Positions 110 to 20,304 of a stretch of DNA of 64,000 nt are shown in pieces. Numbering within the stretch: the first letter of the stretch is position 1; each line of letters starts with the position of its first letter. The notes under the pieces are model-generated. The model did not search any database, was not told the origin of the DNA, and was given only the letters and a program-made list of their open reading frames with translations. The position numbers and the translations under genes are program-made. This stretch comes from Paludibacter sp. (GTDB taxonomy: Bacteria; Bacteroidota; Bacteroidia; Bacteroidales; Paludibacteraceae). The stretch is from positions 1 through 64,000 of the forward strand of contig JAQTUE010000017.1 of assembly GCA_028710415.1 (NCBI GenBank), in the 5' to 3' direction.

Positions 110-2107
110 ATGGTTGAATTGATTAATCTGAGCTGGATCATAGCACTTCTGGCCATCATTGTCTTGCTTTTAGTTCCCACAAATATTAAAGCTCCGGTAG
201 CAGCTTTTGCAGTTGTTGCCAATGCAATCACCACAAGCTGGTTAGCCATTGCTGCATTGAGCGGACAACTTATCAGTTTTACTTTCGATGGAGGGATCAG
301 CATGGGCGATATCGTGATACGGATTGATGAGCTGTCGGCGTGGTTTATACTGATAATCAATTTCACCTGCGTCACCGGGGTTTTCTATGGCTCGGGGTAT
401 CTGAAGGCTTACGACAATCCGGCCAAAAAGCTTAGTCTGCATTGGATACTGTATGTCCTGTTCCAACTTTCGATGGTGTGGGTATGCATGATCCAGCATG
501 GATTGGTGTTCCTCATTGCCTGGGAAATCATGTCATTGTCCTCGATGATGCTGGTTATCTTCGATGCCAACAATCCAAAAACGATAAAAGCGGGTATCAA
601 TTACCTGGTTCAAATGCATATCAGCGTGGTTTTCCTGACCATTGGATTTGTATGGCTGTACTTTCAGACCGGTTCATTTAGCTTTGACGCATTCGTACAT
701 TACTTTGGAGCCAATAGCAATATCTGGTTATTTTTGGTGTTCTTTGTGGGGTTTGGACTCAAAGCGGGCTTTATCCCGTTGCACAGCTGGTTGCCTCACG
801 CCCACCCGGCTGCCCCATCACATGTGTCAGGCGTTATGTCCGGGGTGATAGTAAAACTTGGGATTTACGGGTTGTTCAGGGTGGCCTCGTACCTGAAAAG
901 CGATTACCTGGTATTGGGCGAAATATTGATTATCGTATCCGTACTGACAGGCTTGTACGGAATTATCAATGCAGCCGTTCACCGTGATTTTAAAAGGATG
1001 CTGGCTTATTGTACCATTGAAAACATAGGCATCATTGGTATCGGCATGGGCATCGGGTTAATCGGCCTTGGAAATAATGTGCCAATCCTGTATTACCTGG
1101 GTTTCGGGGGTGCCTTGCTGCATGTACTCAACCATTCGCTATTCAAATCGTTGCTGTTTTATTCGGCCGGATCGGTGTACCAGCAGACCCATACCCGCGA
1201 CATGGAAAAGCTGGGCGGACTGATAAAAAGCATGCCACGGACAGCCGTTTTGTTCCTGATAGGAGCCATTGCCATTGGCGGGATACCTCCATTTAACGGA
1301 TTCATATCGGAGTTCCTGATCTATAGCGGGTTGATTGAAGGGATCAAACTGCAGAGCATGACACAAATCATACTCATGCTGCTTACCTTTGCCGGATTAA
1401 GCATTATAGGGGGACTTTCCATACTTACTTTTACAAAAACCTTTGGTACCATCTTTCTGGGAACCCAACGGCAGGAGTTGCACCATAAACATCATGAAGT
1501 ATCGCGGATCATGTTGATCCCGCAATATGTCATTATCGTGATGATGATGAGTGTAGCCATCTTCCCGCAGGTTTATTTGCAGGTAATCGGGAACTTACTT
1601 TCCGGGCTTACCAAAAGCGCCGTGATACCCATGCCTGAGGAGTTTGCCGGTTACATTTCCATCATGCGAAGTATCAGCCTCTACTCCCTGCTTTTCATAG
1701 GAGTGATTGTTGTATTCTGGGGAATCAGGACGCTTACCATGCGTGGCAGGAACCAGGTCGTTGGAGCTACCTGGGGCTGTGGTTATACGGCGCCAACCAG
1801 CAGGATTCAGTATACCGGAAAGTCATTCTCAAAATCATTGAGCAAGATGTTTAACTTCCTGGTGATCGAACGGAAGCAATACGAAGAATTAAAACCCGGA
1901 GAGATATTCCCTGGGGACAAAAAATACACCTCACATTATCATGATTTCTTTGAATTACGGGTGATACGGGTAGTCACCAACCAGCTGGTATATGCTGCGA
2001 ATTATTTCAAATTTATCCAGAACGGGCGTATACAATCGTATGTGCTTTATGGAATTATATTTATCCTGAGCATTTTTATCCTGACTGTCTTTAATATTAT
2101 ATTATGA
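110..2107 (+). CDS. hyfB: HyfB-like proton-translocating membrane subunit (first of two)
   Basis: A 665-residue integral membrane protein of the NuoL/M/N, MrpA/D and HyfB antiporter family. It should form a proton (or cation) channel in the inner membrane. The family signature is present: a membrane Glu in AWEIMSLSSMM (about E139), a Lys in GLKAGFIPLHSWLP (about K218), the HSWLPHAHPAAPSHVSG loop and a second Lys near K249. The C-terminal part carries the HyfB hallmark GCGYTAPTSRIQYTG and ends with another membrane segment. It is the first gene of a seven-gene operon for a group 4 hydrogenase-like complex, and its stop overlaps the next start as ATGA. Family membership is clear; the ion and the partner reaction are inferred. 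Confidence 0.9.
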   Translation: MVELINLSWIIALLAIIVLLLVPTNIKAPVAAFAVVANAITTSWLAIAALSGQLISFTFDGGISMGDIVIRIDELSAWFILIINFTCVTGVFYGSGYLKAYDNPAKKLSLHWILYVLFQLSMVWVCMIQHGLVFLIAWEIMSLSSMMLVIFDANNPKTIKAGINYLVQMHISVVFLTIGFVWLYFQTGSFSFDAFVHYFGANSNIWLFLVFFVGFGLKAGFIPLHSWLPHAHPAAPSHVSGVMSGVIVKLGIYGLFRVASYLKSDYLVLGEILIIVSVLTGLYGIINAAVHRDFKRMLAYCTIENIGIIGIGMGIGLIGLGNNVPILYYLGFGGALLHVLNHSLFKSLLFYSAGSVYQQTHTRDMEKLGGLIKSMPRTAVLFLIGAIAIGGIPPFNGFISEFLIYSGLIEGIKLQSMTQIILMLLTFAGLSIIGGLSILTFTKTFGTIFLGTQRQELHHKHHEVSRIMLIPQYVIIVMMMSVAIFPQVYLQVIGNLLSGLTKSAVIPMPEEFAGYISIMRSISLYSLLFIGVIVVFWGIRTLTMRGRNQVVGATWGCGYTAPTSRIQYTGKSFSKSLSKMFNFLVIERKQYEELKPGEIFPGDKKYTSHYHDFFELRVIRVVTNQLVYAANYFKFIQNGRIQSYVLYGIIFILSIFILTVFNIIL

Positions 2108-4131
2108 CCTTTGTATTGGTATTTATACTGATTCCGCTCGTATGCATGTGCCTTATTCCTTTTGTGAAAATGAAAGGGAAAGCCATTGCTGTCTATGCAT
2201 CGGTCAGTGTAATTGCTATTCTTACAGGATATTTAGCTTTTCAGGGTTTAGCAGGTAATGATTTTGAACTCATACTTCCGGGGAGCCTGGTAAGCGGTCC
2301 CGTCAGGCTGCATATTGATGCCCTTTCGGGTTGGTTCATGCTGATCATCAACTTTGCATTCCTGACAGGAGGCTTCTATGGCATATTCTATATGAGGGCC
2401 TACATCAGCCAAAAGAAGAATTTAAACTTACATGGCATACTGTTTATACTACTCCATGCTTCACTGATAAGCCTTTGCGCCATTCAAAACAGTATTGTTT
2501 TCCTGGTTGCCTGGGAAATTATGGCATTATCGGCTTTCCTGAGCATCATCTTTGAGCATGAAAAGATTGCAACCGTCAGAGCCGGGATTAATTACCTGAT
2601 CCAGTCGCATGTGTCCATCCTGTTCCTGATGCTTGGATTTATTTGGGTAGCCGGCCAGACAGGGAGTTATGACTTCAGCGCCATACACAGTTATTCAATG
2701 ACACATTCAGGGGCGTTATCGTTGATGCTATACCTGTTCTTCTTTATTGGTTTTGCCATCAAGGCCGGGTTTGTACCTTTCCATACCTGGTTGCCCTATG
2801 CGCATCCGGCTGCACCCGCCCACATATCGGGGATCATGTCGGGGGTATTGATTAAAATCGGTATCTTTGGGATACTAAGAATGTTACTTCTTATCGATGT
2901 CGACTATACTCTGGTGGGTACCATTATACTGATCATGTCGGTAATCTCCGGAGTGTACGGGGTGATGCTGGCGATCCTGCAACACAACCTGAAGAAACTC
3001 CTGGCTTACCACAGCATTGAGAATATCGGGATTATCGGCATTGGCATCGGGCTGGGCTGTATCGGACTGGGGACTAATAATCCCGTACTTAGCTCGTTGG
3101 GCTTTGCAGGGGCACTGCTGCATACCCTGAATCATTCACTGTTCAAATCACTGTTGTTCTTTACTGCAGGGAATGTATACCAGGCTACCCACACACTGGA
3201 TATTGAGAAACTGGGAGGACTGGTAAAGAAAATGCCCCAGACAGCTATACTGTTTTTGATTGCAGCCATTGCCATATCGGGGATACCTCCGTTTAACGGG
3301 TTTATATCTGAATTTATATTGTATACGGGCCTTTACAACTGGATGCAACAGGCAGTAATCGGGACATTGGTGGGCAGTGCCTTTACTGTCATCGGACTGG
3401 TGATGATCGGCGGATTGGCCATGATGTGCTTTACAAAAGCATTCGGGGTAGTTTTTTTAGGAAATCCAAGGCATACGTTCCAGCATGAAGTCAGGGAAGT
3501 TTCTTTCCTGCAGATAGCACCTTTGTATTTCATAGCAGCCCTGATTGTATTCATAGGCTTGTTTCCGGGTATCTTCCTGGATCTGCTGGTAAAGCCGGTT
3601 CAACTTTTTACAGGAGTACGTCAGCTGCCCTTTGCCTCATTTCAGGGAAACGGTATCGAAGCACTCTTATCAGTTAGCCGGGCTAGTTGGTATTTGGTAA
3701 TAATGGTATTAATTCTGTTGGGAGTCAGAATGCTGGTCATGCGAAAAAGAACTGTCACTGTCCTGCCAACCTGGAATTGCGGGTATACTGCGCCAACAGC
3801 CAAAATACAATATACCGCCAGTTCATTTGTAAAGACCTACAGCCAGCTCTTTGGGATGGTGTTCCTGATCTTTAAGAAAGAGAAAGAAGCAGAAGGAATA
3901 TTCCCAACGACTGCACATTTGGAAACACGGCCGTATGATAAGATAGAGAAATGGCTGATCGATTATCCTATTACTAATTTGAAATTATTCTTAGGAAGGT
4001 TCCGGTTTGTACAGAACGGAAAATTGCAGTTTTATATCCTGTATGGAATCCTGTTTATCATTTCGATTATCAGTATTCCGATATTGTATGATAAGGTAAT
4101 GCAATTTATTGAGTTTTTAAAAGCGTTATAA
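2104..4131 (+). CDS. hyfB: HyfB-like proton-translocating membrane subunit (second of two)
   Basis: A 675-residue paralogue of the preceding gene, colinear with it over its whole length. It keeps the membrane Glu (AWEIMALSAFL, about E138), the Lys of AIKAGFVPFHTWLP (about K220), the PYAHPAAPAHISG loop and the C-terminal NCGYTAPTAKIQYTA motif. The start overlaps the upstream stop by 4 nt (ATGA), which implies translational coupling and near-equal amounts of both proteins. The pair most likely arose by tandem duplication, giving the complex an extra antiporter-type subunit. A 363-nt repeat-bearing spacer separates it from hyfC. Confidence 0.9.
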   Translation: MTFVLVFILIPLVCMCLIPFVKMKGKAIAVYASVSVIAILTGYLAFQGLAGNDFELILPGSLVSGPVRLHIDALSGWFMLIINFAFLTGGFYGIFYMRAYISQKKNLNLHGILFILLHASLISLCAIQNSIVFLVAWEIMALSAFLSIIFEHEKIATVRAGINYLIQSHVSILFLMLGFIWVAGQTGSYDFSAIHSYSMTHSGALSLMLYLFFFIGFAIKAGFVPFHTWLPYAHPAAPAHISGIMSGVLIKIGIFGILRMLLLIDVDYTLVGTIILIMSVISGVYGVMLAILQHNLKKLLAYHSIENIGIIGIGIGLGCIGLGTNNPVLSSLGFAGALLHTLNHSLFKSLLFFTAGNVYQATHTLDIEKLGGLVKKMPQTAILFLIAAIAISGIPPFNGFISEFILYTGLYNWMQQAVIGTLVGSAFTVIGLVMIGGLAMMCFTKAFGVVFLGNPRHTFQHEVREVSFLQIAPLYFIAALIVFIGLFPGIFLDLLVKPVQLFTGVRQLPFASFQGNGIEALLSVSRASWYLVIMVLILLGVRMLVMRKRTVTVLPTWNCGYTAPTAKIQYTASSFVKTYSQLFGMVFLIFKKEKEAEGIFPTTAHLETRPYDKIEKWLIDYPITNLKLFLGRFRFVQNGKLQFYILYGILFIISIISIPILYDKVMQFIEFLKAL

Positions 4132-4145
4132 CCTCACCCCCTGCC

Positions 4146-4165
4146 CCCTCTCCTTGAGGAGAGGG
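4146..4165. repeat. Hairpin CCCTCTCC/GGAGAGGG after hyfB-2
   Basis: A perfect 8-bp inverted repeat (CCCTCTCC, loop TTGA, GGAGAGGG) starts 15 nt after the second hyfB stop. No T-run follows, so it is not a standard terminator. It may stabilise or punctuate the long operon mRNA, or be a dispersed repeat element. Confidence 0.55.
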
Positions 4166-4276
4166 TGTTAGAGCACAGGGTTGCAGAAGTTTTATTTAAA
4201 ACAAAAAGACACTTTTAATTTGCTATTATAGTATGTTTAAGTAATTGAAAATATTTAATGATATATTTTGAGTTTT

Positions 4277-4385
4277 GACCCCCTAACCCCCAAAGGGGGC
4301 ATAAAGACGCAGTATTTGAATAATTGATAATACTAAATCGCTCCTGAAGATGCACTCTTACGCCCCCTTTGGGGGTCGGGGGGTC
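4277..4385. repeat. Paired inverted element with CCCCCAAAGGGGG cores (copy A)
   Basis: Two 24-nt arms, 4277-4300 and 4362-4385, are reverse complements apart from two bases. Each arm contains its own small palindrome (CCCCCAAAGGGGG or CCCCCTTTGGGGG), and a 61-nt AT-rich spacer separates them. Related pairs occur at 6325-6503 and 56763-56867. The layout suggests a small non-coding mobile or REP-type element sitting between hyfB and hyfC. Confidence 0.8.
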
Positions 4386-4494
4386 AGGAATTAAATAGTT
4401 GCAATAATAGTCAGCTTATATATTTAATAAACATATCAATATTTATTACTGATTACTTAAAAGAAAAACTAACAAACATATAAACAACAATAAT

Positions 4495-5400
4495 ATGCTG
4501 AGTTTACTATTGATCATCTTAGCCGCCACATTTTTTACCGGTATCATTATCCGCACGAAAAGCATTGCTTCGGGGCGTAAGGGACCCGGGATATTTCAGC
4601 CACTCAGGGATGTGATGCGTCTGTTCAAAAAGGGAGCTGTGTACAGCGAGACATCAAGTTTTGTATTTCGAATAGCTCCCACGATCTATTTTTCTTCGGT
4701 ATTTGTAGCCATGCTGGTAGTGCCGTTCGGACAATCGAAAGGACTTATCAGCTTTAACGGCGACTTTATCTTCTTTGCCTACGTACTGGGACTGGGCAAG
4801 TTCTTTAGCATCATTGGCGCCATGGATACAGGTAGCAGTTTCGAAGGCATGGGTGCAAGCCGTGAAGCCCTCTATTCCATGTTTGCGGAGCCGGCCTTTT
4901 TTATCCTCATGGGGTCGTTGGCATTAATGACCGGACATACTTCATTCCAGGAGATATTTTCAACACTGCACCTGGGATCGTCGATTACCTATGCGTTGGG
5001 GGTATTGGCTGCCTTTGTATTCTTAATGATTGCTATGATTGAAAACAGCCGCATGCCGATTGATGATCCAAAGACTCACCTGGAGCTCACCATGGTACAC
5101 GAAGTAATGATCCTGGACAACAGCGGCTTTGACCTGGGCCTGATATTGACAGCCGGATACCTGAAGTTTGCAGTCTATGGGGCGATTATCTTTAACCTGT
5201 TCAGCGGATCAATCGCTTACGAATATGCCATACCGTTATTCTTTGTCATGCAGGCTTTCCTGGCAATTGTTGTGGGAATGATTGAATCGTTTATGGCACG
5301 TTCGAGGATGAACCACAATGCACAGTTTATTGTAGTGCTTTCGTCGGTGGCAATACTTATATTCTTTGGGGCATTGCTGGTATCGGGGAAATTTATTTAG
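4495..5400 (+). CDS. hyfC: HyfC/NuoH-like membrane anchor subunit
   Basis: A 301-residue membrane protein of the NuoH/HyfC/HycD family, which anchors the peripheral NuoD/NuoB-like module to the membrane antiporter subunits. The conserved cytoplasmic loop ENSRMPIDDPKTHLELTMVHEVM (begins at about residue 183) is intact; in complex I the matching loop lines the quinone and proton pathway. Length is normal for the family. Spacers of 363 nt before and 291 nt after the gene are long for one operon and are filled with repeats, but gene order and orientation match hyf-type operons. Confidence 0.9.
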   Translation: MLSLLLIILAATFFTGIIIRTKSIASGRKGPGIFQPLRDVMRLFKKGAVYSETSSFVFRIAPTIYFSSVFVAMLVVPFGQSKGLISFNGDFIFFAYVLGLGKFFSIIGAMDTGSSFEGMGASREALYSMFAEPAFFILMGSLALMTGHTSFQEIFSTLHLGSSITYALGVLAAFVFLMIAMIENSRMPIDDPKTHLELTMVHEVMILDNSGFDLGLILTAGYLKFAVYGAIIFNLFSGSIAYEYAIPLFFVMQAFLAIVVGMIESFMARSRMNHNAQFIVVLSSVAILIFFGALLVSGKFI

Positions 5401-5419
5401 AAGTTTGAGTGAAGAATAA

Positions 5420-5568
5420 AAAACCGAACCACAATAGACACATAGTACACAATAAAAAAAGTACTTAATAGTGAATACAATACGGTTACTTAGGAAAAGA
5501 ACAGCAAGATAATTGAAAGCATTATTTCTATTGTGTTCTTCTATTGTGCCTATTGTGGTTAGGTTTTA
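5420..5568. repeat. Imperfect inverted repeat in the hyfC-hyfE spacer
   Basis: The left arm (5420-5456, containing ACCACAATAGACACATAG) pairs imperfectly with the right arm (5527-5568, containing CTATTGTGCCTATTGTGGTT). Arms of about 37-42 nt face each other across about 70 nt. This is the same two-armed layout as the CCCC/GGGG elements but with unrelated sequence. Confidence 0.6.
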
Positions 5569-5592
5569 TTTTTCAAAGCAGCATTAATAAGA

Positions 5593-5617
5593 ATTCTTGG
5601 GACAGTGTCCCAAGAAT
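5593..5617. repeat. Perfect 12-bp-arm palindrome (TTGGGACA-G-TGTCCCAA core)
   Basis: A perfect palindrome with 12-bp arms around one central G, 75 nt before the hyfE start. It could be an operator, an mRNA hairpin or a short dispersed repeat. No T-run follows, so it is not a typical terminator. Confidence 0.65.
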
Positions 5618-5691
5618 CAAAAACTAATATATTTAAAGGTTTACATTTAAAATCTGACCTTTCAGAATTAATAATTTAAAATTAAGAACTT

Positions 5692-6324
5692 ATGTTACAC
5701 GTACTACTTATAGTTTTTCTGATTACGCTGTTTTACATAGCCATTGCGAACCGCATGACGACCTATGTGAATGTGCTGGCTTTGCAGGGTATACTGCTTT
5801 TCTTTGTGGCATTCCTGGAGCTGAAACATATCAACACGGTCAACCTGATATTAATCCTGTTGGAAACCATCATTTTTAAGTCGATAGCTGTACCCGTATT
5901 TTTAAAATATGTACTGAAGCGGAACCATATTACCAGGGAAGCGGAACCCTATCTGCCAAATTTCGTATCGCTGATCATTACAACAGTAATTGTTGTGACT
6001 ACTATCCTGCTTTCGAAAACTATGGAAGAAAGCTACCTGGATAAAATGTATTTTGTAGTTGCCCTGTCGACTTTGTTTACCGGACTTTACTTTATTGCCA
6101 CACGCCGGAAGATCATAACTCACGTGATGGGATATTTAATAATAGAAAATGGTGTATTTGTACTTTCACTGGCAGTAGGGAATGAAATGCCCATGTTGGT
6201 GAACCTGGGTATTATGCTCGATATTTTTGCCAGTGTGCTTATACTGGGGATCTTCCTGAATAAGATCGGGGATGTATTTAAAGATATTGATGTAAACCAA
6301 CTTACAAACCTCAAAGACTATTAA
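5692..6324 (+). CDS. hyfE: HyfE-like membrane subunit
   Basis: A 210-residue, highly hydrophobic protein with several predicted membrane segments, matching HyfE of hydrogenase-4-type complexes (related to NuoK/MrpC). The conserved end NLGIMLDIFASVLILGIF, followed by a soluble tail ending LTNLKDY, is typical. It lies between hyfC and hyfF as in canonical hyf operons and probably helps form the proton channel between the antiporter subunits and the anchor. Assignment relies on size, hydrophobicity, end motif and gene order. Confidence 0.82.
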   Translation: MLHVLLIVFLITLFYIAIANRMTTYVNVLALQGILLFFVAFLELKHINTVNLILILLETIIFKSIAVPVFLKYVLKRNHITREAEPYLPNFVSLIITTVIVVTTILLSKTMEESYLDKMYFVVALSTLFTGLYFIATRRKIITHVMGYLIIENGVFVLSLAVGNEMPMLVNLGIMLDIFASVLILGIFLNKIGDVFKDIDVNQLTNLKDY

Positions 6325-6503
6325 GGACCCCTAAATCCCCTAAAGGGGACTTTAAGACCAAGTTTATATATGTGTATATTAAGAACTAAATTACGAACCA
6401 ATTAACTTTGAAATAAGATATTTTTTATCTGCAAAGAACAAAGACTTTCAAAATTAAAATATAAAGAAATACTAACTTAGTTCCCCTTTAGGGGCTAGGG
6501 GTC
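6325..6503. repeat. Paired inverted element with CCCCTAAAGGGG cores (copy B)
   Basis: The left arm at 6325-6350 (TCCCCTAAAGGGGAC core) and the right arm at 6480-6503 (TTCCCCTTTAGGGGC core) are imperfect reverse complements about 130 nt apart. They almost fill the 199-nt hyfE-hyfF spacer, with the left arm starting right after the hyfE stop codon. Same family as 4277-4385 and 56763-56867. Confidence 0.75.
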
Positions 6504-6523
6504 ATCAAACAATAAGCAATTTT

Positions 6524-7954
6524 ATGATAGAAATATATTTAATAGGATCGATAGGGATAGGGACAGGGATATTCTTCAACAGGGGGAAAGTGCTGAACTA
6601 CTCGTTGATTTGGTTGTTCATTGCGCTGCAGTGTGCATTCACCATTTATGCGTGTATGAATTACAACCAGACGGAAGCAACTTATTTCACGTTCGACTCC
6701 CTGGGGATCATCATGTTGCTCACAGCTACAATTATCGCTATCCCCGCGGTGATACACAGCCATATTTACCTTGAGGAGAGCGAGGAAGGGACACCACGAT
6801 CACGATCGGTCTATTTTGGGGCGTTGACACTGCTGATTACAGCGGTCAGTGCTGCCTACCTGGCCAATCATATTGCCGTGGTATGGATCTTTACTGAAAT
6901 AACTACCCTGAGTGCTTCGGCTTTGATCTATCACCACCGGAATAAACTGGCACTGGAAGGTACCTGGAAATATGTGTTTATCTGCGCTATCAGCATTACG
7001 TTTGTATTTATCGGGATCCTATTTTTAAGCCTCTCGTTTGCCAAGGCAGGGTCGGATGATTTATCGTACAAGAACTTATTATCGCATAGTTCGATTTTGA
7101 ACCTATCCTGGTTAAGGCTGGCATTCTTATTTATATTTACCGGGTTTACCGCCAAGCTGGGACTATTCCCCATGTTTACAGCCGGGGTAGATGCAAAGGA
7201 TAAAGCTCCGGGTCCTGCTGCTGCCTTACTTTCGAGTATCGTGATGTGCATGGGCTTTGTGGGGATATTCCGTATTTACATTGTGATGGCTAATACTCCG
7301 TTGCTTCATTGGGCTAGCCTGGTAGTTGGCATTGCAGCATTCCTATCGTTGTTCATTGCTGCAGTATACATGATCAAGGTGAAAAACATCAAGCGTATGA
7401 TGGCATACTCAAGTGTGGAACATATGGGCCTGGTGATGCTGGGTATTGCAGCCGGGGGAATCGGGTATTATGCAGCCATACTTCACATTGTGCTCCATGC
7501 ATTTGTGAAGTCCAGCTTTTTCTTCCAATACAATCAAATATACCGGATATTTAAGAATAAAAACATCTATCTGCTGGGGAATTATTTCAAATACAACACC
7601 ACAGGAGCTATTGTGGTGCTGTTGGCATTTATCAGTGTTACAGCCATGCCACCTTCGGGAATGTTTGTCAGTGAGTTTCTGATATTCAGGTCACTATTCG
7701 AATCGAACCAACTGATATTGCTGTTGGTTGTATTGTTGTTGCTTACACTGATCATCTGGGCATTTGCCAGGAATATATTCAAGATATTGTTTATCCCGGC
7801 AGTAAATTTTGACGAGTCAACTGTACCGACCGTAAGCCCATGGAGATCGGTATCCCAGTTTATACTGATTGGTGGTGCAGCTTACCTGGGACTAAATCCA
7901 CCACTTATTTTTGTGGATCTGATAAAGAGCAGTATTATGTTGCTGCCACATTGA
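6524..7954 (+). CDS. hyfF: HyfF-like antiporter subunit
   Basis: A 476-residue membrane protein of the HyfF/NuoN/MrpD branch. Key residues of the antiporter fold are visible: Glu in FTEITTLSAS (about E125), Lys in FTAKLGLFPMF (about K211), then KDKAPGPAAALLSS and the MAYSSVEHMG helix. The loop that reads HSWLPHAHPAAP in the HyfB proteins here reads LFPMFTAGVDAKDKAPGP, as is usual for HyfF. It is the third antiporter-type subunit of the complex and sits just before the soluble catalytic-like genes. Confidence 0.88.
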   Translation: MIEIYLIGSIGIGTGIFFNRGKVLNYSLIWLFIALQCAFTIYACMNYNQTEATYFTFDSLGIIMLLTATIIAIPAVIHSHIYLEESEEGTPRSRSVYFGALTLLITAVSAAYLANHIAVVWIFTEITTLSASALIYHHRNKLALEGTWKYVFICAISITFVFIGILFLSLSFAKAGSDDLSYKNLLSHSSILNLSWLRLAFLFIFTGFTAKLGLFPMFTAGVDAKDKAPGPAAALLSSIVMCMGFVGIFRIYIVMANTPLLHWASLVVGIAAFLSLFIAAVYMIKVKNIKRMMAYSSVEHMGLVMLGIAAGGIGYYAAILHIVLHAFVKSSFFFQYNQIYRIFKNKNIYLLGNYFKYNTTGAIVVLLAFISVTAMPPSGMFVSEFLIFRSLFESNQLILLLVVLLLLTLIIWAFARNIFKILFIPAVNFDESTVPTVSPWRSVSQFILIGGAAYLGLNPPLIFVDLIKSSIMLLPH

Positions 7955-7962
7955 TTAGTAGG

Positions 7963-8093
7963 TAGTAGGTAGTGGGTAGTAAGTAGTGGTTAGTAGGTAG
8001 TAAGTAGAAAAAAACACAGATCAATAAACAATACCGAAGAACGCGGAACCTTTCAAACATCAAACCTTTCAAACATCAAACTTTTCAAACGAT
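7963..8093. repeat. Simple repeat tracts GTAGTAG and CTTTCAAACAT
   Basis: The hyfF-hyfG spacer holds two degenerate tandem tracts: about seven copies of a GTAGTAGGTA-like unit (roughly 7963-8007) and three to four copies of TTTCAAAC(AT) (roughly 8048-8091). The second tract is the reverse complement of the GTTTGAA tracts near 17.69-17.74 kb and 31.44-31.51 kb. Confidence 0.7.
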
Positions 8094-8103
8094 TAAAACG
8101 AAT

Positions 8104-9603
8104 ATGAACTACATCAGCATAAAAAACAACCAGACGATTCAGCTTTCTGAGATTCCGGAAAGTAACTATGAAGCTTTTTATGATATGAACCTGGACCTGG
8201 TTCGTGGGCATACTGAGAGGCATTGTGTGAATTATTTCGGATATAAAGTTGGGAATAACATCAAACTTATTTGTTGTATTGCCGATGATTCAACCCATAT
8301 CATCATGGTTTCCACTTGCCTGGTTCACAAAGCGCATGCCCTGGAATCATTTACAGCCCAACTGTTGTGTTTTGAGAAATTCGAACGTGAGATTCATGAG
8401 AACTTTGGCATTAACTTCATTGATCATCCCTGGTTAAAACCGGTTCGGTATGCTTTCAATCGGGATAATATGTCGCAAACCAAGGAAAATTACCCTTTCT
8501 TTTCCATCGATAGTGAAGAACTTCATGAAGTGGGTGTAGGACCTATTCATGCCGGGATTATTGAGCCGGGACATTTCAGGTTTATATGCAACGGGGAACA
8601 GATCCTCCACCTGGAGATCCAACTGGGATACCAGCACCGGGGCATGGAACAATTATTTATTGAAAAAAAGAAACTTCTTCAAAGGGCTACCCTTGCCGAA
8701 GACATCGCCGGTGATACGGTTGTAGGGCATGGAACAACTTTTGCCCATGCATGGGAAAGTTTATGCGGTTTTGAAGCCACCCGGGATATAGAATTTGCAC
8801 GAACCCTGGCAATGGAACTTGAACGAATTGCTATCCACGTAAGCGATTTGAGCGGTGCCTGCACGGATATCGCTTACCAGTTGGGCAGTTCTGTATTTGG
8901 AAGACTTCGTACTCCTATTATCAACTTCATGCAGGAATGGGGCGGCAACCGGCTGGCAAAGGGATTGATCAGGCCCGGAAGAAACCAGTTTCCTTTTACC
9001 CCTGCTTTAGCGGAGCGGCTGACACAAATACTGGATATTTTTGAACGTGAATTCAGGGAAATGGTTGAAAAGTTATTCTCATTGCCCAGTGCCCTGTCAC
9101 GTTTTGAACGGACAGGCGTAGTATCCAATGCCGATGCACTTTCCATTGGGGCAGTCGGCATGACAGCCCGGATGACTAACCTGAACAGGGATATCCGCAC
9201 GTCACATCCCTTTTCACTATATTCCGAGTTAAATCATATACCGGTTCTGAAGCGACATGGGGATGTCTACTCACGGGTTCAAATACGCAGGGAAGAAATA
9301 GAACAATCAATGCGCTATATCCGGAAGCTAATATCAGAAGTACCTGCATTGCCTGCAAAATACGAGACATTAAATGCACCAAAAGCCGATTCATTCTGCC
9401 TGTCACTTGTTGAAGGCTGGAGAGGTGAAATATGCCATTGTGCACTGACCGATAAAAAAGGTGAACTGATGCTCTATAAAATTAAAGATCCTTCGTTCCA
9501 TAACTGGCTGGCGCTGGCTCTGGCAGTGAGAAACAATGAAATATCAGATTTCCCGATTTGCAATAAGAGTTTCAACTTTTCCTATTCGGGACATGATCTT
9601 TAA
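8104..9603 (+). CDS. hyfG: HyfG-like large subunit lacking NiFe ligands (Ehr type)
   Basis: A 499-residue fusion of a NuoC-like domain (about 1-125) and a NuoD/hydrogenase large-subunit domain (about 145-499). The family fold is clear from LEIQLGYQHRGMEQL and HAWESLCGFEATRDIEFARTL. In true group 4 hydrogenases the next motif is ERICGICG, whose two Cys bind NiFe; here it reads EDIAGDTVVG, with Ala202 and Thr205 at the Cys positions. The C-terminal CxxC is also absent: the protein ends NKSFNFSYSGHDL with one Cys near 486. It therefore cannot hold a normal NiFe site. This matches the large subunit of Ehr complexes; substrate and reaction are unknown. It might instead bind a quinone or another carrier, as NuoD does (inference). 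Confidence 0.88.
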   Translation: MNYISIKNNQTIQLSEIPESNYEAFYDMNLDLVRGHTERHCVNYFGYKVGNNIKLICCIADDSTHIIMVSTCLVHKAHALESFTAQLLCFEKFEREIHENFGINFIDHPWLKPVRYAFNRDNMSQTKENYPFFSIDSEELHEVGVGPIHAGIIEPGHFRFICNGEQILHLEIQLGYQHRGMEQLFIEKKKLLQRATLAEDIAGDTVVGHGTTFAHAWESLCGFEATRDIEFARTLAMELERIAIHVSDLSGACTDIAYQLGSSVFGRLRTPIINFMQEWGGNRLAKGLIRPGRNQFPFTPALAERLTQILDIFEREFREMVEKLFSLPSALSRFERTGVVSNADALSIGAVGMTARMTNLNRDIRTSHPFSLYSELNHIPVLKRHGDVYSRVQIRREEIEQSMRYIRKLISEVPALPAKYETLNAPKADSFCLSLVEGWRGEICHCALTDKKGELMLYKIKDPSFHNWLALALAVRNNEISDFPICNKSFNFSYSGHDL

Positions 9604-9658
9604 ACAGAGGTAAGAGGTAAGGAGAAAGTAGTAGGTAGAAAGATAAAAATTAAATGCA

Positions 9659-10411
9659 ATGTTCGAAAATATAAAAATAGTATTTCATCAGGGGAAACAG
9701 TTCATTCCAAATATAAGGACTGCCATTGTTCCCGGCATTTTCAGGGGTCGGCCAGTCATTAGCCGAGAGAAAGTAGATGAGGAAGAGTTGATAGCAATCT
9801 GTCCGACAGATGCCATTAGTGGAAATCCTGTTAGCATAAACCTTGGAAAATGTACTTTCTGTGGTGAATGTGCCATGCGTTTTCCTGAAAAGATTACCTT
9901 TACAAAAGATTATAAGCTGGCCAGCAATGTCCCCGACCGGTTGATTATCCGGGAAGGTGAAGATAAGCCAGTAGAAGTAGATCCGGATAAGGTTCGGAAA
10001 GAAATTCACAGTGTGCTGGGCAGATCCCTGAAACTACGACAGATTTCAGCAGGAGGGGATAACAGTTGCGAGATGGAATTGAACGCAGCCAACAATGTCC
10101 AATTCGACATGAGCCGTTTTGGAATAGATTTTGTGGCTTCCCCTCGCCATGCGGATGGAATTGTAATTACAGGACCCATTACTAAAAACATGGCAGAGGC
10201 AGTTCAAATTTGTTATGATGCTACCCCTGACCCCAAAATAATTGTATTAGTTGGTACGGATGCCATCAGTGGAGGTGTTTTTGAAGGCAGTCCTGCGATA
10301 GACAGAAGCTTCCTTGAGAAATACAATGTCGACCTTTACATCCCCGGGAATCCGGCTCATCCACTGACCATTATTAACGGATTACTGGATTTAACACGGA
10401 AATTAAAATAA
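9659..10411 (+). CDS. hyfI: Fused ferredoxin / NuoB-like small subunit with degenerate N2 site
   Basis: A 250-residue protein joining a ferredoxin-like domain (about 40-95) to a NuoB/HycG-like domain (about 120-250). The ferredoxin part keeps CPTDAI (Cys48) and CTFCGEC (Cys65, 68, 71), the ligands for one [4Fe4S] cluster; the ligands of the second cluster are gone (Phe75 before Pro76). The NuoB part is recognisable from ISAGGDNSCEMEL, FGIDFVASPRHADGIVITGP and VDLYIPGNPAHP. Of the four Cys that hold the proximal cluster, only Cys137 remains; the others are Asp134, Asp201 and Asn231. With the NiFe-less large subunit this implies a complex whose electron path ends differently from a hydrogenase. 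It is the last gene of the operon. Confidence 0.85.
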   Translation: MFENIKIVFHQGKQFIPNIRTAIVPGIFRGRPVISREKVDEEELIAICPTDAISGNPVSINLGKCTFCGECAMRFPEKITFTKDYKLASNVPDRLIIREGEDKPVEVDPDKVRKEIHSVLGRSLKLRQISAGGDNSCEMELNAANNVQFDMSRFGIDFVASPRHADGIVITGPITKNMAEAVQICYDATPDPKIIVLVGTDAISGGVFEGSPAIDRSFLEKYNVDLYIPGNPAHPLTIINGLLDLTRKLK

Positions 10412-10524
10412 TAGAAAGCTTGTTTTGAAATTTGATTATTGACTTTTTATACGAAACATAAAAAGATTAATGTCGATTTTCAAGAAAAAACCTAAATATA
10501 TTTTATTATTTCAATCCAAAAGCG

Positions 10525-10532
10525 TATTTTTG
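10525..10532 (+). promoter_or_regulatory. -7 promoter box (TATTTTTG) for the coiled-coil/zapA genes
   Basis: TATTTTTG matches TAnnTTTG exactly and ends 18 nt before the start codon at 10551. This separates the zapA genes transcriptionally from the upstream Ehr-like operon. Confidence 0.5.
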
Positions 10533-10550
10533 TGTAGATTTTTTTGAAAA

Positions 10551-10844
10551 ATGACTAACCGTTACGAAGAACTTATTAGCGCATTTGAGACAAAACTGCG
10601 AAAATTAATTTCGGAGTATACGATTTTAAAAGAGCAGAACTCATTGATGAAAGTAGAATTAGACCGGAAACAAACCGATTTAATGATTGCGCATCAGGAG
10701 ATTTTGGAACTTCGGAAAAATTACGACCATTTGCAAATTGCAAGAAACCTGGGGGCTTCAGAAACTGAAAAGGCTGAATCCAGGCAACAAATCACTAAAA
10801 TGGTGCGGGAAATTGACAAGTGTTTAGCTCTTTTGGATGAATAG
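10551..10844 (+). CDS. Small coiled-coil protein upstream of zapA
   Basis: A 97-residue charged protein without membrane segments. Its middle (about 10-75, LISEYTILKEQNSLMKVELDRKQ and on) looks like one continuous coiled coil, and it ends MVREIDKCLALLDE. It lies 5 nt before zapA and is surely co-transcribed with it. Its position and shape suggest a cell-division accessory protein, perhaps a functional counterpart of ZapB. That function is inferred from the neighbour, not from a recognised domain. Confidence 0.75.
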   Translation: MTNRYEELISAFETKLRKLISEYTILKEQNSLMKVELDRKQTDLMIAHQEILELRKNYDHLQIARNLGASETEKAESRQQITKMVREIDKCLALLDE

Positions 10845-10849
10845 AGCTT

Positions 10850-11143
10850 ATGAAAGACGATAAATTCACAATAAATGTTCAGATTGGTGGCTTTAAATTG
10901 CCATTGAGTATTCCTCGTAAAGACGAAGAGTTATACCGGAAGGCTGAAAAAATGGTCGTACAGATCCTGGATCAATACCAAAGACAGTACAGTCAACGAG
11001 CTACCGAAGAAATACTTATACTGGTGGCATTTCGAATCGCTGTAATTGTATCAAAACAAGAGCTTAGCGAGGATACGGTTCCTTTAGCAGAAAAAATTCA
11101 ATCCCTGGATAATGAATTAAAAGCATTGCTTTCGGAGGATTAA
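10850..11143 (+). CDS. zapA: Cell division protein ZapA
   Basis: A 97-residue protein with the ZapA layout: an N-terminal beta region (FTINVQIGGFKLPLSIPRKDEELYRKAEKMV) followed by a long helix. ZapA binds FtsZ and promotes bundling of Z-ring filaments at midcell. Size and the start of the globular domain match the family. It follows the coiled-coil gene by 5 nt. A strong hairpin with a T-run lies 33 nt after its stop, before rny. Confidence 0.85.
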   Translation: MKDDKFTINVQIGGFKLPLSIPRKDEELYRKAEKMVVQILDQYQRQYSQRATEEILILVAFRIAVIVSKQELSEDTVPLAEKIQSLDNELKALLSED

Positions 11144-11176
11144 ATACATTTAAATCGTTTTCAAAACATTATTTTC

Positions 11177-11247
11177 CGCATTACATTGTTAAGGTAAAAC
11201 TTTAAGCATCTTAAAGTTATTATTCTTTCGATGCAATGCGTTTTTTT
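11177..11247 (+). ncRNA. Structured hairpin RNA between zapA and rny: terminator or short 6S-like RNA
   Basis: A 12-bp closing stem (11177-11188 with 11229-11240, one A-C mismatch) encloses unpaired strands of 9-10 nt on each side and a perfect 9-bp apical stem (AACTTTAAG 11198-11206, CTTAAAGTT 11210-11218). A run of seven T follows at 11241-11247. The T-run makes it an intrinsic terminator for zapA. The closing stem, central bubble and apical stem also resemble 6S RNA in miniature, and in many bacteria 6S RNA lies next to zapA. At about 70 nt it is shorter than known 6S RNAs, so terminator is the safer reading. Confidence 0.5.
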
Positions 11248-11320
11248 ATGCAAACAACTACTAGATACAGAATTATTAACTCACATATTATTAATTATTT
11301 ACACACTTTAAATTCACAAA

Positions 11321-12841
11321 ATGGAAAACATAATAATTGGACTGATTGCACTTGTTATCGGAGCCGGAGGGACTTTTGCCCTTCTACGCTTTGTAAACAA
11401 ACGGGCGGTTCTGGAAGCAGAGGCTGAAGCTGAGCTTCTCAAAAAGAACAAGCTCATAGAAGTAAAAGAAAAATTTATTGCACTGAAAGCTGAGCATGAA
11501 CAACAGGTTCAGGAACGGAATGCTAAAATTCAATCGGTTGAAGTGAGACTTCAGCAGAAAGAATTGCAATTGAACCAAAAGCAAGGTGACGTACAACGCA
11601 AGATCAATGAAGTTGACGGATTAAAAGATTCACTGGAACAACAACATAACGCGATTGAGATTAAGAAAAAAGAACTGGATCACCTGAATCATCAGGCTCA
11701 CGAACAACTTGAAACCATATCGGGATTATCTGCTGATCAGGCAAAAGAACGTTTGATTGAAGCATTGAAAGAAGAAGCCAAAACAGAAGCCATGTCCTAT
11801 GTGAATGACATTATGGAAGAAGCTAAAATGACGGCTAACAAAGAAGCTAAGAAAATCATTGTTCAGAGCATTCAACGGGTAGCTACTGAGACTGCCATTG
11901 AAAACTCTGTAACCGTATTCCATATTGAATCGGATGAGATAAAAGGACGTATTATCGGTCGTGAAGGACGTAATATCAGGGCGCTTGAAGCTGCTACCGG
12001 TGTTGAAATCATTGTAGATGACACCCCCGAAGCAATTGTACTTTCTGCGTTTGACCCCGTTCGTCGTGAAATAGCACGCCTGTCACTTCACCAATTGGTA
12101 ACTGATGGTCGTATTCACCCTGCCCGTATTGAAGAGGTAGTGAACAAGGTGAAGAAACAAGTGGAAGATGAAATCGTTGAGATTGGTAAGAGAACCACTA
12201 TTGACCTAGGCATTCATGGTTTACACCCTGAATTGATCCGTTTGGTAGGAAAAATGAAATACCGTTCATCTTACGGACAGAACCTGTTACAGCATGCCCG
12301 TGAGACAGCAAATCTTTGTGCTACTATGGCAGCCGAACTGGGATTGAATCCAAAGAAAGCAAAACGTGCCGGTCTGTTACACGATATAGGCAAGGTGCCT
12401 GATGACGAACCGGAATTACCACATGCAATCCTTGGAATGCGCCTCGCTGAGAAATATAAGGAAAAACCGGATATTTGCAATGCTATCGGTGCCCACCACG
12501 ATGAAGTGGAAATGGAAACTCTGATTGCTCCGATTGTTCAGGTTTGTGATGCTATTTCAGGAGCACGTCCGGGAGCACGTCGCGAAATTGTAGAAGCTTA
12601 CATTAAACGTTTGAATGATCTGGAAGCATTGGCGCTATCCTATCCTGGCGTATTAAAAACTTATGCTATCCAGGCAGGTCGTGAATTACGCGTTATTGTA
12701 GGTGCTGATAAGATTGACGATAAAGAAACAGAGTTGTTGTCATTTGATATTGCTAAAAAAATACAGGATGAAATGACTTATCCGGGTCAGGTGAAAATTA
12801 CTGTCATCAGGGAAACCCGTGCAGTAAGTTATGCAAAATAA
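11321..12841 (+). CDS. rny: Ribonuclease Y
   Basis: A 506-residue endoribonuclease that starts bulk mRNA turnover at the membrane. Domains in order: an N-terminal membrane helix ([19 protein letters not shown], about 3-22), a long coiled coil (about 30-190), a KH RNA-binding domain with [15 protein letters not shown] (about 210-270), and an HD domain with AGLLHDIGK and [10 protein letters not shown] (about 320-430), the metal-binding catalytic centre. Length is normal. The Met at 11321 places the membrane helix at the very N-terminus. An intrinsic terminator follows at 12886-12933. Confidence 0.95.
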
Positions 12842-12885
12842 ATCATTGCATGCTATAAGCACTTTCAAATAGGTGTTTCAAATTT

Positions 12886-12933
12886 AAGAGATAATCAAAG
12901 GCAACTTGCTTGCTAATGGTTATCTCTTTTTTT
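12886..12933 (+). terminator. Rho-independent terminator after rny
   Basis: An 11-bp stem (AAGAGATAATC 12886-12896 with 12918-12928, one G-T wobble) runs into a T-run (12927-12933) 45 nt after the rny stop codon. Confidence 0.8.
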
Positions 12934-13078
12934 GTGCTTATTAAGTTCAATTCTTATTTGAGTAGAAATCCTTTATTTTAATTTTCGATATTGCATTGTA
13001 AACTATAGAAAATGACAAAATGTATACTTTCCATTAATTAATAATAGTTAATGTATATTTATTTATTAAGCACATCAT

Positions 13079-13109
13079 TAATTGCTTATTATTGAATAAT
13101 AAGCAATTA
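13079..13109. repeat. AT-rich inverted repeat (14-bp arms)
   Basis: Perfect arms 13079-13092 and 13096-13109 (core TTGCTTATTAT / ATAATAAGCAA) with a 3-nt loop, about 90 nt upstream of a good promoter box. It could be a regulator binding site or a hairpin. The remaining DNA between the rny terminator and 13198 shows nothing recognisable. Confidence 0.6.
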
Positions 13110-13197
13110 CAATGTGATAAAATATCTTACTGTAATACTGACAATATATACTACATTTACATGTAGCGTTTATTACATTTTTATCAGGTTTATTTGC

Positions 13198-13205
13198 TAC
13201 TTTTG
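13198..13205 (+). promoter_or_regulatory. -7 promoter box (TACTTTTG) before two tiny ORFs
   Basis: TACTTTTG matches TAnnTTTG exactly. It lies 10 nt before the ATG of a 32-codon ORF and about 120 nt before a 42-codon membrane-protein ORF, so this apparently empty region is probably transcribed. Confidence 0.45.
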
Positions 13206-13214
13206 AGCTGAATT

Positions 13215-13313
13215 ATGTATTTTCAAACCGATGCTACATTAAATCACTACCGGGAAAATCACCACACTATCAACACTAAGTTAGAATTTGAAAAAGATTT
13301 AGATTCTATTTAA
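13215..13313 (+). CDS. Possible 32-residue peptide or leader ORF
   Basis: Encodes a polar peptide starting MYFQTDATLNHYRENHH and ending KDLDSI. It begins just after the promoter box at 13198 and ends 13 nt before the next small ORF. No family is recognised. It may be a leader peptide, part of the 5' leader of the downstream ORF, or chance. The main support is its place between promoter and membrane ORF. Confidence 0.25.
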   Translation: MYFQTDATLNHYRENHHTINTKLEFEKDLDSI

Positions 13314-13326
13314 ACCCTTAAATTAT

Positions 13327-13455
13327 ATGTTAAATAAATTGGATGCGTTTTTAAGCTGGTTATTAAGAGAAGGAATAACTTTTATGATTTTTATTTCAAT
13401 CATGATAGTAATAGTATACGGATTGTTTCAATTATTTAATAGCCCACATATTTAA
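13327..13455 (+). CDS. Small single-pass membrane protein (42 residues)
   Basis: Encodes MLNKLDAFLSWLLREGITF followed by one strongly hydrophobic stretch (about 19-37, FMIFISIMIVIVYGLFQLF) and a short tail ending NSPHI. The amphipathic start, single membrane helix and upstream TAnnTTTG box at 13198 make it a credible small membrane protein, of the kind gene finders miss. No known family is recognised; regulatory or toxin-like roles are possible but unsupported. The following 400 nt (13456-13854) show no gene, repeat or RNA signal that I can recognise. Confidence 0.45.
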   Translation: MLNKLDAFLSWLLREGITFMIFISIMIVIVYGLFQLFNSPHI

Positions 13456-13854
13456 TACTCCTTCTAAAAATCCAATTTCACATTCTCTTTTCAACGGATG
13501 CACAACAAACCGTTCGTCAAGGGGCAACTAACCGTCACTTCTCTTCTCAAAAATGCAAGTTGCACCTTCGGCATTACAGTACCATATTTACAAAAAACAT
13601 AGTCATACCCCACTTCCTGATACTTATTGAGAGATAATGTGATCGTACAAAGCTAATAGTCAAAATAATCAAATCACCTATCCAAGATCCTTTCCATTGA
13701 ACTCAATTAGACCTATCCAATGAGCATGTGATTTCAAATTGTCAATTAGAGCCATCAATAAGAAAACTCAAATTTGAAGTTCGATGATTTCTCCCAAAGT
13801 TTTCGTATTTATGCCCTCCTGTTCATTTGAAGAGCCATTTTCACGATTACTTTA

Positions 13855-13900
13855 TTAGAGTGTTCTACTATACTTGATTAGAGTGTTCTACTATACTTGC
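13855..13900. repeat. Perfect 23-bp tandem duplication inside the transposase remnant
   Basis: The 23-bp unit at 13855-13877 (starting ATTAGAGTGTTCTAC) is repeated exactly at 13878-13900. On the minus strand the junction creates an early stop in the transposase reading frame (after EHSNQV), so it is one of the disabling changes. Confidence 0.85.
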
Positions 13901-14890
13901 TGGAATGGCAAGCATTTTAAACCTTAAGGTAGATAATCTATTCCACACTTTATCGTTGATAATAACCTGTTTAAATAGGCTTATGAAGTTGTATGCAATG
14001 GTCATTAACAGCAAACATGCCTCAGTACCATCAAACTCATCTTGGTTCATTTTATCCAATCCGTAATCGTATTTGAGTTCTTTTATCCTGTTTTCGCAAT
14101 TTGCACGACCTCTGTACAATCACCAAATATCTACCGCAGATAACTTTAAGATTGTAATGTAGCACGTGTACTGATAACCATTCAGTTCATAATCATCCTC
14201 AAACAAACTTAATTGTTTGCCTACAGCTTTTGGGCGTTTTGCTATTTTCTGAAGCACTGCTATCATTCGTCTGCCTATAGTGCCTTATATTCGAATTCAG
14301 CTATTTCAAGACCATCCTCTATGTGTAACCATGTGTGCTGGGAAGCAATTTTTCGTTGTATGGTAACGTACATCGGAACAGCCACAATGCAATCAATAGA
14401 AACATCTTTTTGTTCCAGATAATCAAATATGCTCTTATCGTAAAATTCACTATCTAACCGTAATAACCCTATTTTCCTGCCACCAAAGAATGAAAGCGTT
14501 TCTTCTAAAAATGTCTTGAAATTATTGGCTGTATGAGCATCGCCCGCGCATAACCAGAAATTGGTAACCATTTCTATTTCTGAAACAAAGGCAATAATAG
14601 GATGTTGCGATTTGCGACCTGGCTTATGTTTTTATAGCCTTTTTTAGCTCCTTCTTGCTCGCCATACCGTGTAATGACAGATCCAACTGAGCAAACCTGT
14701 TAGCACCACACCAGACCCCTGCCATGAACTGAATAAACAACTGAATGGGAGGATAACCCCGATTGGAACCCTGTACCGGTAAGGGTAAATGTTCTAATTT
14801 ATCTATAAAACCAGATTTGGTTAACATCTGTTGTAAGATAGCCAACCCACCATAAGCGGTAATCTCCTGATCTACGAACTCTAATTCCAT
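13868..14890 (-). pseudogene. Decayed IS1380-family transposase
   Basis: Three blocks on the minus strand match successive parts of IS1380-type DDE transposases. N-terminal: MELEFVDQEITAYGG...QGSNRGYPPIQLFIQF (14890-14624). Middle: KPGRKSQHPIIAFVSEIEMVTNFW...GLLRLDSEFYDKSIFDYLEQKD (about 14625-14275). C-terminal: YRGRANCENRIKELKYDYG (14119-13868). Damage is visible: an in-gene deletion joins AQLD directly to SVITRYGEQEGAKKGY, removing roughly 60 codons; frameshifts lie near 14630 and 14275; an in-frame TGA replaces Arg just before LYRGRA; and a 23-bp duplication truncates the C-terminus. It is inactive. No terminal inverted repeats were found. It marks the boundary between the rny block and the pectin locus. 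Confidence 0.85.
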
Positions 14891-15012
14891 AAGCTTGCAT
14901 TAAAGGACAAAAACAATACGAAAATATAATGAATTAATGCAATATAACAAGCTGATTATAAATAGTATGCAACCAATATCTTCTAATGGTTTCCATTTGA
15001 AAATTCTGAATA

Positions 15013-15060
15013 AAAAAAAGAACCCAAAGATTAGATAGCTCTAATGGACAATTTGGGTTT
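15013..15060 (-). terminator. Terminator of the GH2 gene at 15096-17522
   Basis: An 8-bp stem, AACCCAAA (15022-15029) with TTTGGGTT (15053-15060), followed on the minus strand by a U-run (A-run 15013-15020). It lies 36 nt after the GH2 stop codon. Confidence 0.7.
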
Positions 15061-15095
15061 ATTATATTGCGAGTCAATTGACAACAAAAGACTTA

Positions 15096-20294: not shown

Positions 20295-20304
20295 CTCTGT
20301 TTCA

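Follow-up and report, generated by a model that had tools for sequence, protein, structure and literature searches.

Ehr complexes, as found in Geobacter sulfurreducens (GSU0739-45), Nitrospira and CPR (candidate phyla radiation) bacteria, are encoded by a hydrogenase-4-like gene set and have a large subunit without the [NiFe] cysteines. Passages of three papers describe Ehr without the [NiFe] residues (PMC6349859, PMC10284858, PMC7304191), and according to a passage of a fourth, Ehr does not metabolise H2 (PMC5037454). For Geobacter, part of PMC7894505 states that the role of Ehr was never investigated, and reports a higher abundance of its subunits on formate than under hydrogen-containing conditions. 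The same passage suggests that Ehr, when raised on formate, may help to form H2 from this substrate, contrary to a purely non-hydrogenase Ehr. A partnership with formate dehydrogenase (FDH-Ehr) is proposed for some Ehr in a section of PMC6349859. The DNA analysed here, positions 1-64,000 of the forward strand of contig JAQTUE010000017.1 of Paludibacter sp. (GCA_028710415.1, a genome of 104 contigs, G000), carries a seven-gene operon of this kind at positions 110-10411; this whole stretch of 64,000 nucleotides is called the window. A preliminary description of the window had proposed an Ehr-type complex with no established reaction. This assignment holds, as the large subunit groups with Ehr-like rows in our tree and the function of Ehr is given as unknown in a passage of PMC10284858. 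It had also taken a [NiFe]-less Ehr to be undescribed in itself, which the three papers cited above contradict. An Ehr lacking the proximal cluster was not found in the open-licence literature, among the matches listed. The Ehr family is known; what is new, judged from alignments and tree, is a subfamily defined by having lost the ligands of its proximal and outer clusters, with three lineages on the tree.

The proximal cluster feeds the [NiFe] site in hydrogenases and reduces quinone in complex I. Its cysteines were compared in the best 80 of 501 coding relatives (from a scan with one genome per species), which are 63-88% identical to the query. The counts for the small subunit are based on 75 full-length sequences, the window's and those of 74 of the 80 loci, six (L008, L034, L057, L060, L062, L079) having been dropped as incomplete. 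The small subunit (9659-10411; all genes of the operon are on the + strand) joins a ferredoxin domain at the N terminus to a NuoB/HyfI-like domain, as indicated by Pfam and a fold match. In the alignment, D134-N-S-C137 (10058-10069) occupies the place of the first two proximal cysteines, D201 (10259-10261) that of the third and N231 (10349-10351) that of the fourth. D134 is present in 75/75 sequences and C137 in 71/75, with Y, A, G or V in the other four; site 201 is D in 73/75 and E in 2/75, and site 231 is N in 74/75 and Y in 1/75. The motif GGDNSCE...GTDA...PGNP of the window thus stands against GGCNxCE...GAC...PGCP in HycG/HyfI, which the operons keeping these cysteines (keepers) much resemble. 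The proximal [4Fe-4S] cluster, which is of the N2 type, has lost three of its four ligands in the window clade.

The ferredoxin domain has been reduced as well. Compared with NuoI of the same genome (by eye), HyfH and HycF, motif 1 lacks its CxxCxxC and retains its CP cysteine, and motif 2 lacks its last cysteine and retains its CxxCxxC. These retained residues, C48, C65, C68 and C71 (9800-9871), are the ligands of a single remaining [4Fe-4S] cluster of the middle, N6b type and occur in 75/75 sequences. The names and the order N6a-N6b-N2 come from complex I structures, and we take them to apply to the ferredoxin-domain and proximal sites. One cluster therefore keeps its ligands while those of both its neighbours, the outer (N6a-type) and the proximal (N2-type), are lost. 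This loss is fixed and not a sign of decay, because D134, D201, N231 and C137 are kept in 75, 73, 74 and 71 of the 75 sequences. Replacing Cys by Asp or Asn requires two nucleotide substitutions, and near-fixed replacements of this kind, among family members that share 66-83% identity with the window's protein (59 compared), are not the expected outcome of drift. By its alignment, the loss of the ligands of the proximal cluster and of one ferredoxin-domain cluster is what sets the clade apart from most Ehr-like operons examined. The preliminary description had overlooked it and had spoken of an energy-conserving machine; the oxidoreductase form of that idea is undercut.

The same loss is found outside this clade. 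Among ten plasmid operons, which were picked for divergence and not drawn evenly, the proximal cysteines are kept in eight. Variovorax copy 1 and Caballeronia keep everything, that is, the proximal four and eight ferredoxin-domain cysteines. The proximal cysteines are present, in a small subunit without the ferredoxin domain, in Rhizobium, Azospirillum, Methylovirgula, Methylocalor, Rhodococcus and Variovorax copy 2. All four proximal cysteines are lost in Allomeiothermus silvanus (T, D, E, S) and on a Mycobacterium branderi plasmid (N, D, D, A). These two have also lost the outer ferredoxin ligands and have kept the same four middle-cluster cysteines as the window clade. A maximum-likelihood tree was calculated from 52 large subunits: 25 from operons that lost the proximal ligands (losers, oversampled), 22 from keepers, two [NiFe], two Nuo and one unscored. 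With Nuo as outgroup, HycE/HyfG and the 48 Ehr-like rows separate at 99/95; published Ehr reference sequences are not among these rows. The tree requires three separate losses (Bacteroidota, Allomeiothermus, Mycobacterium plasmid), and its starred branches force three. A single loser clade is rejected (p-AU 2e-79), as are the pairings of Bacteroidota with Allomeiothermus (4e-9) and with Mycobacterium (3e-9). On this tree, the loss of the proximal ligands is derived and recurrent, in three lineages. An acid stands at site 201 and at 134 or 137 in all three loser groups; the rough independence product for this, calculated post hoc, is 1.6e-5. The route looks stepwise, with the outer cluster lost before the proximal one, because some keepers (L092-L094, L104) already have one complete ferredoxin-domain set only.

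Three further observations concern the plasmids. On the Variovorax plasmid (L107), two Ehr-like operons that differ from each other, at 8845-16129 and 19541-26725, are separated by about 3.4 kb, one with and one without the ferredoxin domain. On plasmid pMESIL01 of Allomeiothermus silvanus (L109 and L116), the Ehr-like operon without proximal cysteines occurs twice, in a duplicated region. The six-gene Ehr-like operon of the Methylovirgula plasmid (L117, 1-8453) adjoins a gene for the F-type ATP synthase beta subunit.

The large subunit (8104-9603) is of the Ehr type, with NuoC-like and NuoD/HyfG-like parts, according to Pfam, a PDB match and the alignment. The four [NiFe] cysteine sites, as aligned with E. 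coli HyfG and HycE, read A202, T205, S493 and G496. The first pair lies in A202-G-D-T205 (8707-8718, in EDIAGDT) and the second in S493-Y-S-G496 (9580-9591), within the end motif NKSFxLSYxGHDL. The replacements Ala202 and Thr205 and the missing C-terminal CxxC, already pointed out in the preliminary description, are confirmed by this alignment. Four cysteine ligands elsewhere in the protein, which it had named as grounds for refutation, were looked for, and no CxxC motif exists anywhere in the large subunit (0/81 aligned family members). A hydrogenase with relocated cysteine ligands was rejected on this basis, and the residues support the conclusion that the complex is not a [NiFe] hydrogenase. 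The polar residues of the former [NiFe] region, for instance E199, D204, R440, S493, H497 and D498, are invariant in the 62 sequences aligned there. A Gly is found where complex I has its quinone Tyr, a residue with a role with quinone in that enzyme.

Some lone cysteines deserve mention. C253 (8860-8862) is present in 81/81 members of the clade and absent in the sister keeper L091; it was dropped as a clade-specific cysteine, being Cys also in E. coli HyfG, HycE and six plasmid keepers. In C444-H-C446 (9433-9441), C444 is found in 81/81 and C446 in 77/81. C444 is also present in the first-branching loser, L090, and in no keeper examined, including L091. As a compensating new cysteine site, C444 arises with the loss in Bacteroidota and not in the other two losers, Allomeiothermus and Mycobacterium, which are without it.

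The membrane arm comprises two HyfB-like antiporter-type subunits, B1 (110-2107) and B2 (2104-4131), a HyfC/NuoH-like membrane anchor, C (4495-5400), a HyfE-like subunit with a NuoK-like C-terminal part (5692-6324) and a HyfF-like antiporter-type subunit, F (6524-7954). In complex I, a Glu in transmembrane helix (TM) 5 and Lys residues in TM7, TM8 and TM12 have pumping roles. All four are kept in B1 (E139, K218, K249, K443; invariant in 60/60) and in B2 (E138, K220, K251, K445; 63/63). Two of the four are kept in F, the TM5-type E125 and the TM7-type K211 (74/74), where K290 and E384 are also invariant (74/74). The cytoplasmic loop DDPKTHLELTMxHEVMILDNSG of the HyfC-like protein is conserved. 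Compared with six close relatives, the seven genes have a dN (nonsynonymous divergence) of 0.03-0.19 and a mostly saturated dS (synonymous divergence). Omega is at most 0.065 wherever dS is computable, which it never is for the large subunit, where pN/pS is 0.10-0.14. Plain decay of the operon is contradicted by these sequence comparisons, because of the purifying selection and the conservation.

Among the described systems, the sulfane sulfur reductase MBS of Pyrococcus furiosus, also of the complex I family, has lost two of the four [NiFe] cysteines and is fed by ferredoxin, as described in a part of PMC7684303. Its catalytic site, in the same account, is the proximal [4Fe-4S] cluster, held by three cysteines (PMC7684303). 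The window operon differs in that at most one cysteine is left at the site that is catalytic in MBS. E. coli hydrogenase 4 and formate hydrogenlyase (Hyf, Hyc) have a similar gene content and order and provide the best PDB matches; unlike them, the window operon has neither the [NiFe] nor the proximal ligands, its ferredoxin domain is fused to the small subunit instead of forming a separate HyfA/HyfH, and HypD is missing. With complex I (Nuo) it has NuoD, NuoB, NuoH and antiporter-like subunits in common, whereas it has no NADH module, carries Gly for the quinone Tyr and has lost three of the four N2 ligands. Compared with other Ehr-like operons, the clade has lost the proximal and outer ferredoxin ligands, and hyfB is doubled in at least 52 of the 80 loci. 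The antiporter-like subunits of DAB and Mrp are considered in PMC13144422 to operate without electron transfer (see also PMC7419157). A complex I-like subunit of DAB2 is there proposed to be coupled to CO2 hydration, a non-redox chemistry (PMC13144422). In the window, the hydrophilic arm consists of the Ehr large and small subunits and not of DabA, and a HyfC is present.

We tentatively favour the view that the operon encodes an ion-translocating complex with a dismantled electron wire, in which something else than the arrival of electrons in the cavity would provide the drive or the gating. Electrons would be unable to reach the old catalytic or quinone cavity by the usual path. The roles of the proximal cluster in MBS, hydrogenases and complex I are presumably impossible by that path, because the proximal ligands are lost, and ion movement would not be driven by reduction in the cavity, since the usual electron path does not lead there. 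The complex might instead be used in a Mrp- or DAB-like manner, with ions (H+, perhaps another cation) passing through B1, B2, F and C, either down the ion-motive force or against it. Via the conserved loops of the large subunit and HyfC, this movement could be tied to a protonation, or to the binding of a ligand, in the vacated pocket, and the new carboxylates D134 and D201 may stand in for the change in charge that the cluster used to provide. The remaining [4Fe-4S] cluster would then be a structural part, or a redox or oxygen gate. It is possible, though doubtful, that this represents a redox-independent or merely redox-gated ion machine in general, at least three lineages having lost the [NiFe] site and the proximal and outer clusters, having retained the pump subunits, the coupling loops and a single isolated cluster, and using carboxylates as a charge switch.

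Several points weigh against this reading. Ion transport by the complex is a prediction from sequence. All four ligands of the lone [4Fe-4S] cluster remain strictly conserved, an argument for some electron traffic, and C444 (with C446) could be part of a new redox site in the clade. In F, Cys and Arg replace the Lys of TM8 and TM12, although E. coli HyfF, with Asn and Arg, deviates at these columns as well. The N2 region and the cavity loops have low confidence in the single-chain models. Allomeiothermus and Mycobacterium are each represented by one plasmid-borne loser with a long branch, and the tree carries warnings for long branches meeting, Allomeiothermus among them, and for an odd letter make-up in ten rows.

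The main rival, in itself rather unlikely, is a re-routed redox pump, in which electrons would pass from ferredoxin to the lone [4Fe-4S] and from there to a new cofactor or redox cysteine (C444/C446, perhaps together with C253 or C41/C58), or to a soluble acceptor at the arm surface. The four ferredoxin-type cysteines (75/75) and the large and small subunits and coupling loops, all kept, fit such a wire, as does the appearance of C444 together with the loss (L090 and 81/81 of the clade). However, Allomeiothermus and Mycobacterium lost the same clusters and gained no C444, C253 is not specific to losers, the outer cluster, the normal electron entry, is also gone, and no recurring electron-donor gene lies nearby among the neighbour groups found in at least six loci. 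A change that leaves the wire intact has also been considered, in which the proximal site would hold an unusual [4Fe-4S] cluster with mostly O/N ligands (two Asp, one Asn, one Cys). Fe-S clusters with one Asp among their ligands are known, and C137 is kept in 71/75 sequences; the four in which it is Y, A, G or V, and the other two losers, which have no cysteine at any of the four sites (TDES, NDDA), make this reading very improbable.

Energy-driven non-redox chemistry of the kind proposed for DAB, that is, hydration, protonation or ligand binding in the pocket driven by the ion-motive force, is an unlikely explanation. It has a precedent in DAB2, where a complex I-like subunit is linked to CO2 hydration in a passage of PMC13144422, and the invariant polar residues of the former [NiFe] region (62/62) agree with it; no known catalytic motif or metal-site signature was recognised in the proteins, and the operon is without a metabolic partner. 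The proximal cluster may, on the other hand, never have been essential in an ordinary Ehr, its loss then having no functional meaning. Operons of the Rhizobium type, with proximal cysteines and without the ferredoxin domain of the small subunit, indicate that an unbroken wire is not a rule of the family, but the four proximal cysteines kept in 15 of 17 Bacteroidota small subunits imply that the cluster is under selection elsewhere, and we consider this explanation most improbable. Least credible of all is a decaying, functionless remnant on its way to loss. The stepwise loss of cofactor ligands across the family could be taken in its favour; the purifying selection on seven genes, the near-invariant replacement residues and the full gene order in 52 of the 80 loci, with 24 of the other 28 close to an end of the stretch, speak against it.

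If an ion-translocating complex without its usual electron wire is indeed encoded here, it would bear on the long-standing question of how complex I couples electron transfer to ion pumping. A natural, conserved relative that has the pump subunits and coupling loops and is without the triggering redox centre would offer a direct test, through either another trigger for the same coupling or an unknown electron path, and the three losses on the tree provide a comparative handle. Such a relative would also caution against taking genes annotated as hydrogenase-4 or NuoB/D in these Bacteroidota as proof of a hydrogenase or a quinone reductase.

The order of the seven genes, B1-B2-C-E-F-large-small, all intact and on the + strand, corresponds to that of a group 4 [NiFe] hydrogenase, as the preliminary description had it, and agrees with the coordinates of the open reading frames (ORFs), Pfam and NCBIfam. 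Pfam matches are above the cut-off for six of the seven proteins; the exception is the fourth, with Oxidored_q2 just under the cut-off as its sole match, and the Fer4 match in the seventh is also slightly below. The best NCBIfam models, from the first to the seventh gene, are hydrogenase 4 subunit B (twice), NuoH, hydrogenase 4 membrane subunit, hydrogenase membrane subunit followed by HyfF models, NuoD and NuoB, all with scores below the curated cut-offs of the library. By sequence, the nearest PDB entries are subunit 5 of formate hydrogenlyase (FHL; 7z0s_E, E 5e-35) and then MbhL (6cfw_L, E 5e-32) for the large subunit, and MbhJ (6cfw_J, E 6e-27) and then FHL subunit 7 (7z0s_G) for the small subunit. 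Foldseek with the AlphaFold models is in agreement (7z0s_E for the large subunit; 6cfw_J and 7z0s_G for the small subunit). The mean pLDDT (predicted local distance difference test) of these single-chain models is 79.6 for the large and 85.5 for the small subunit. By its genes and their residues, the operon encodes an intact complex of the complex I superfamily, of the Ehr type, that is under purifying selection.

The record titles of the best 80 loci name Bacteroidota taxa in 77 cases and only 'bacterium' in three. The order B-B-C-E-F-large-small on one strand is found in 52 loci; among the other 28, matches lie within 1500 bases of an end of the fetched stretch in 24, including L016, three loci (L063, L065, L071) have a single B and one (L066) has a split C. 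With 501 coding relatives and this shared order, the operon is no chance arrangement. The doubling of hyfB was considered as a partner of the cluster loss and rejected, since the genomes of L090 and of its sister keeper L091 (L118 and L119) both have a single B, indicating separate events. An even draw of 395 Bacteroidota genomes, the window's included, yielded the large subunit in 17 (E up to 1e-30) and the small subunit in the same 17 (E up to 1e-25). All four proximal cysteines are kept in 15 of these 17, and D, C, D, N is found in two, the window genome and G009. In one metagenome-assembled genome (MAG), L016, the small subunit (19447-20190) is located about 8 kb from the other operon genes, on the opposite strand, the result of a rearrangement or an assembly error.

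The estimated contamination of the window genome is 6.3%. Three Paludibacter-titled MAGs (L009, L012, L014) have this operon too, followed by the same ORFs, which speaks for its belonging to the window genome. Downstream of the operon lie a short ORF without a Pfam match (10551), zapA and rny, the first two of which also follow in those three MAGs. No gene for an NADH or other input module is present in the seven-gene operon, whose own upstream side is limited to 109 bases at the contig start. For the neighbouring genes, ORFs of at least 90 aa were clustered from 81 stretches (80 loci and the first 25 kb of the window), and the groups found in at least six loci were inspected; none of them resembles an electron donor. 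The recurring neighbours are a Crp-type regulator (11 loci), a 175-aa acetyltransferase-like protein (8), the window ORF 10551 (7), RNase Y (7), ZapA (6), a nucleotidyltransferase-like protein (6) and a glycosyltransferase-like protein (6), the two transferase types and the acetyltransferase being named by eye.

In the whole genome, HypD (PF01924) has no match, with E. coli and three further controls positive. The preliminary description had noted the absence of hyp genes; this stands for HypD genome-wide, the other hyp genes not having been searched. The large subunit of group 1-3 [NiFe] hydrogenases (PF00374) has no match either. Only three NuoB-like genes are present, and the other two adjoin NuoCD genes, a position by which a stand-in small subunit supplying the proximal cluster was rejected. 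The other two NuoD-like genes of the genome are situated in complex I-type operons on contigs 26 and 59 (C26, C59). The former is a long locus that reads by eye from NuoA to NuoK; the latter holds NuoB and NuoCD, with NuoA by eye, close to the contig start. The only match to the Molybdopterin family (PF00384) belongs to the nuo operon of contig 26. A formate dehydrogenase partner was rejected on this basis, and the FDH-Ehr idea does not apply here, because the genome has no formate dehydrogenase by PF00384. Two Rnf/Nqr-type genes are present.

The remainder of the window, 15096-64000, resembles a utilisation region for plant polysaccharides (rhamnogalacturonan/pectin), with GH115, lyases and a hybrid two-component regulator; Pfam was used for five proteins and the others were judged by eye. 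Two proteins of 1575 and 1579 aa, encoded at 20305-25032 and 42818-47557 on the - strand, link a rhamnogalacturonan lyase of family 11 to passenger-associated-transport repeats (PATR) and to a tail for type IX secretion. They thus combine autotransporter-type repeats with sorting by the type IX secretion system (T9SS). Two proteins of about 900 aa (25530-28229 and 28545-31286, both on the - strand) have PATR and secretion-tail matches, one of each pair below the cut-off, and no Pfam catalytic domain.

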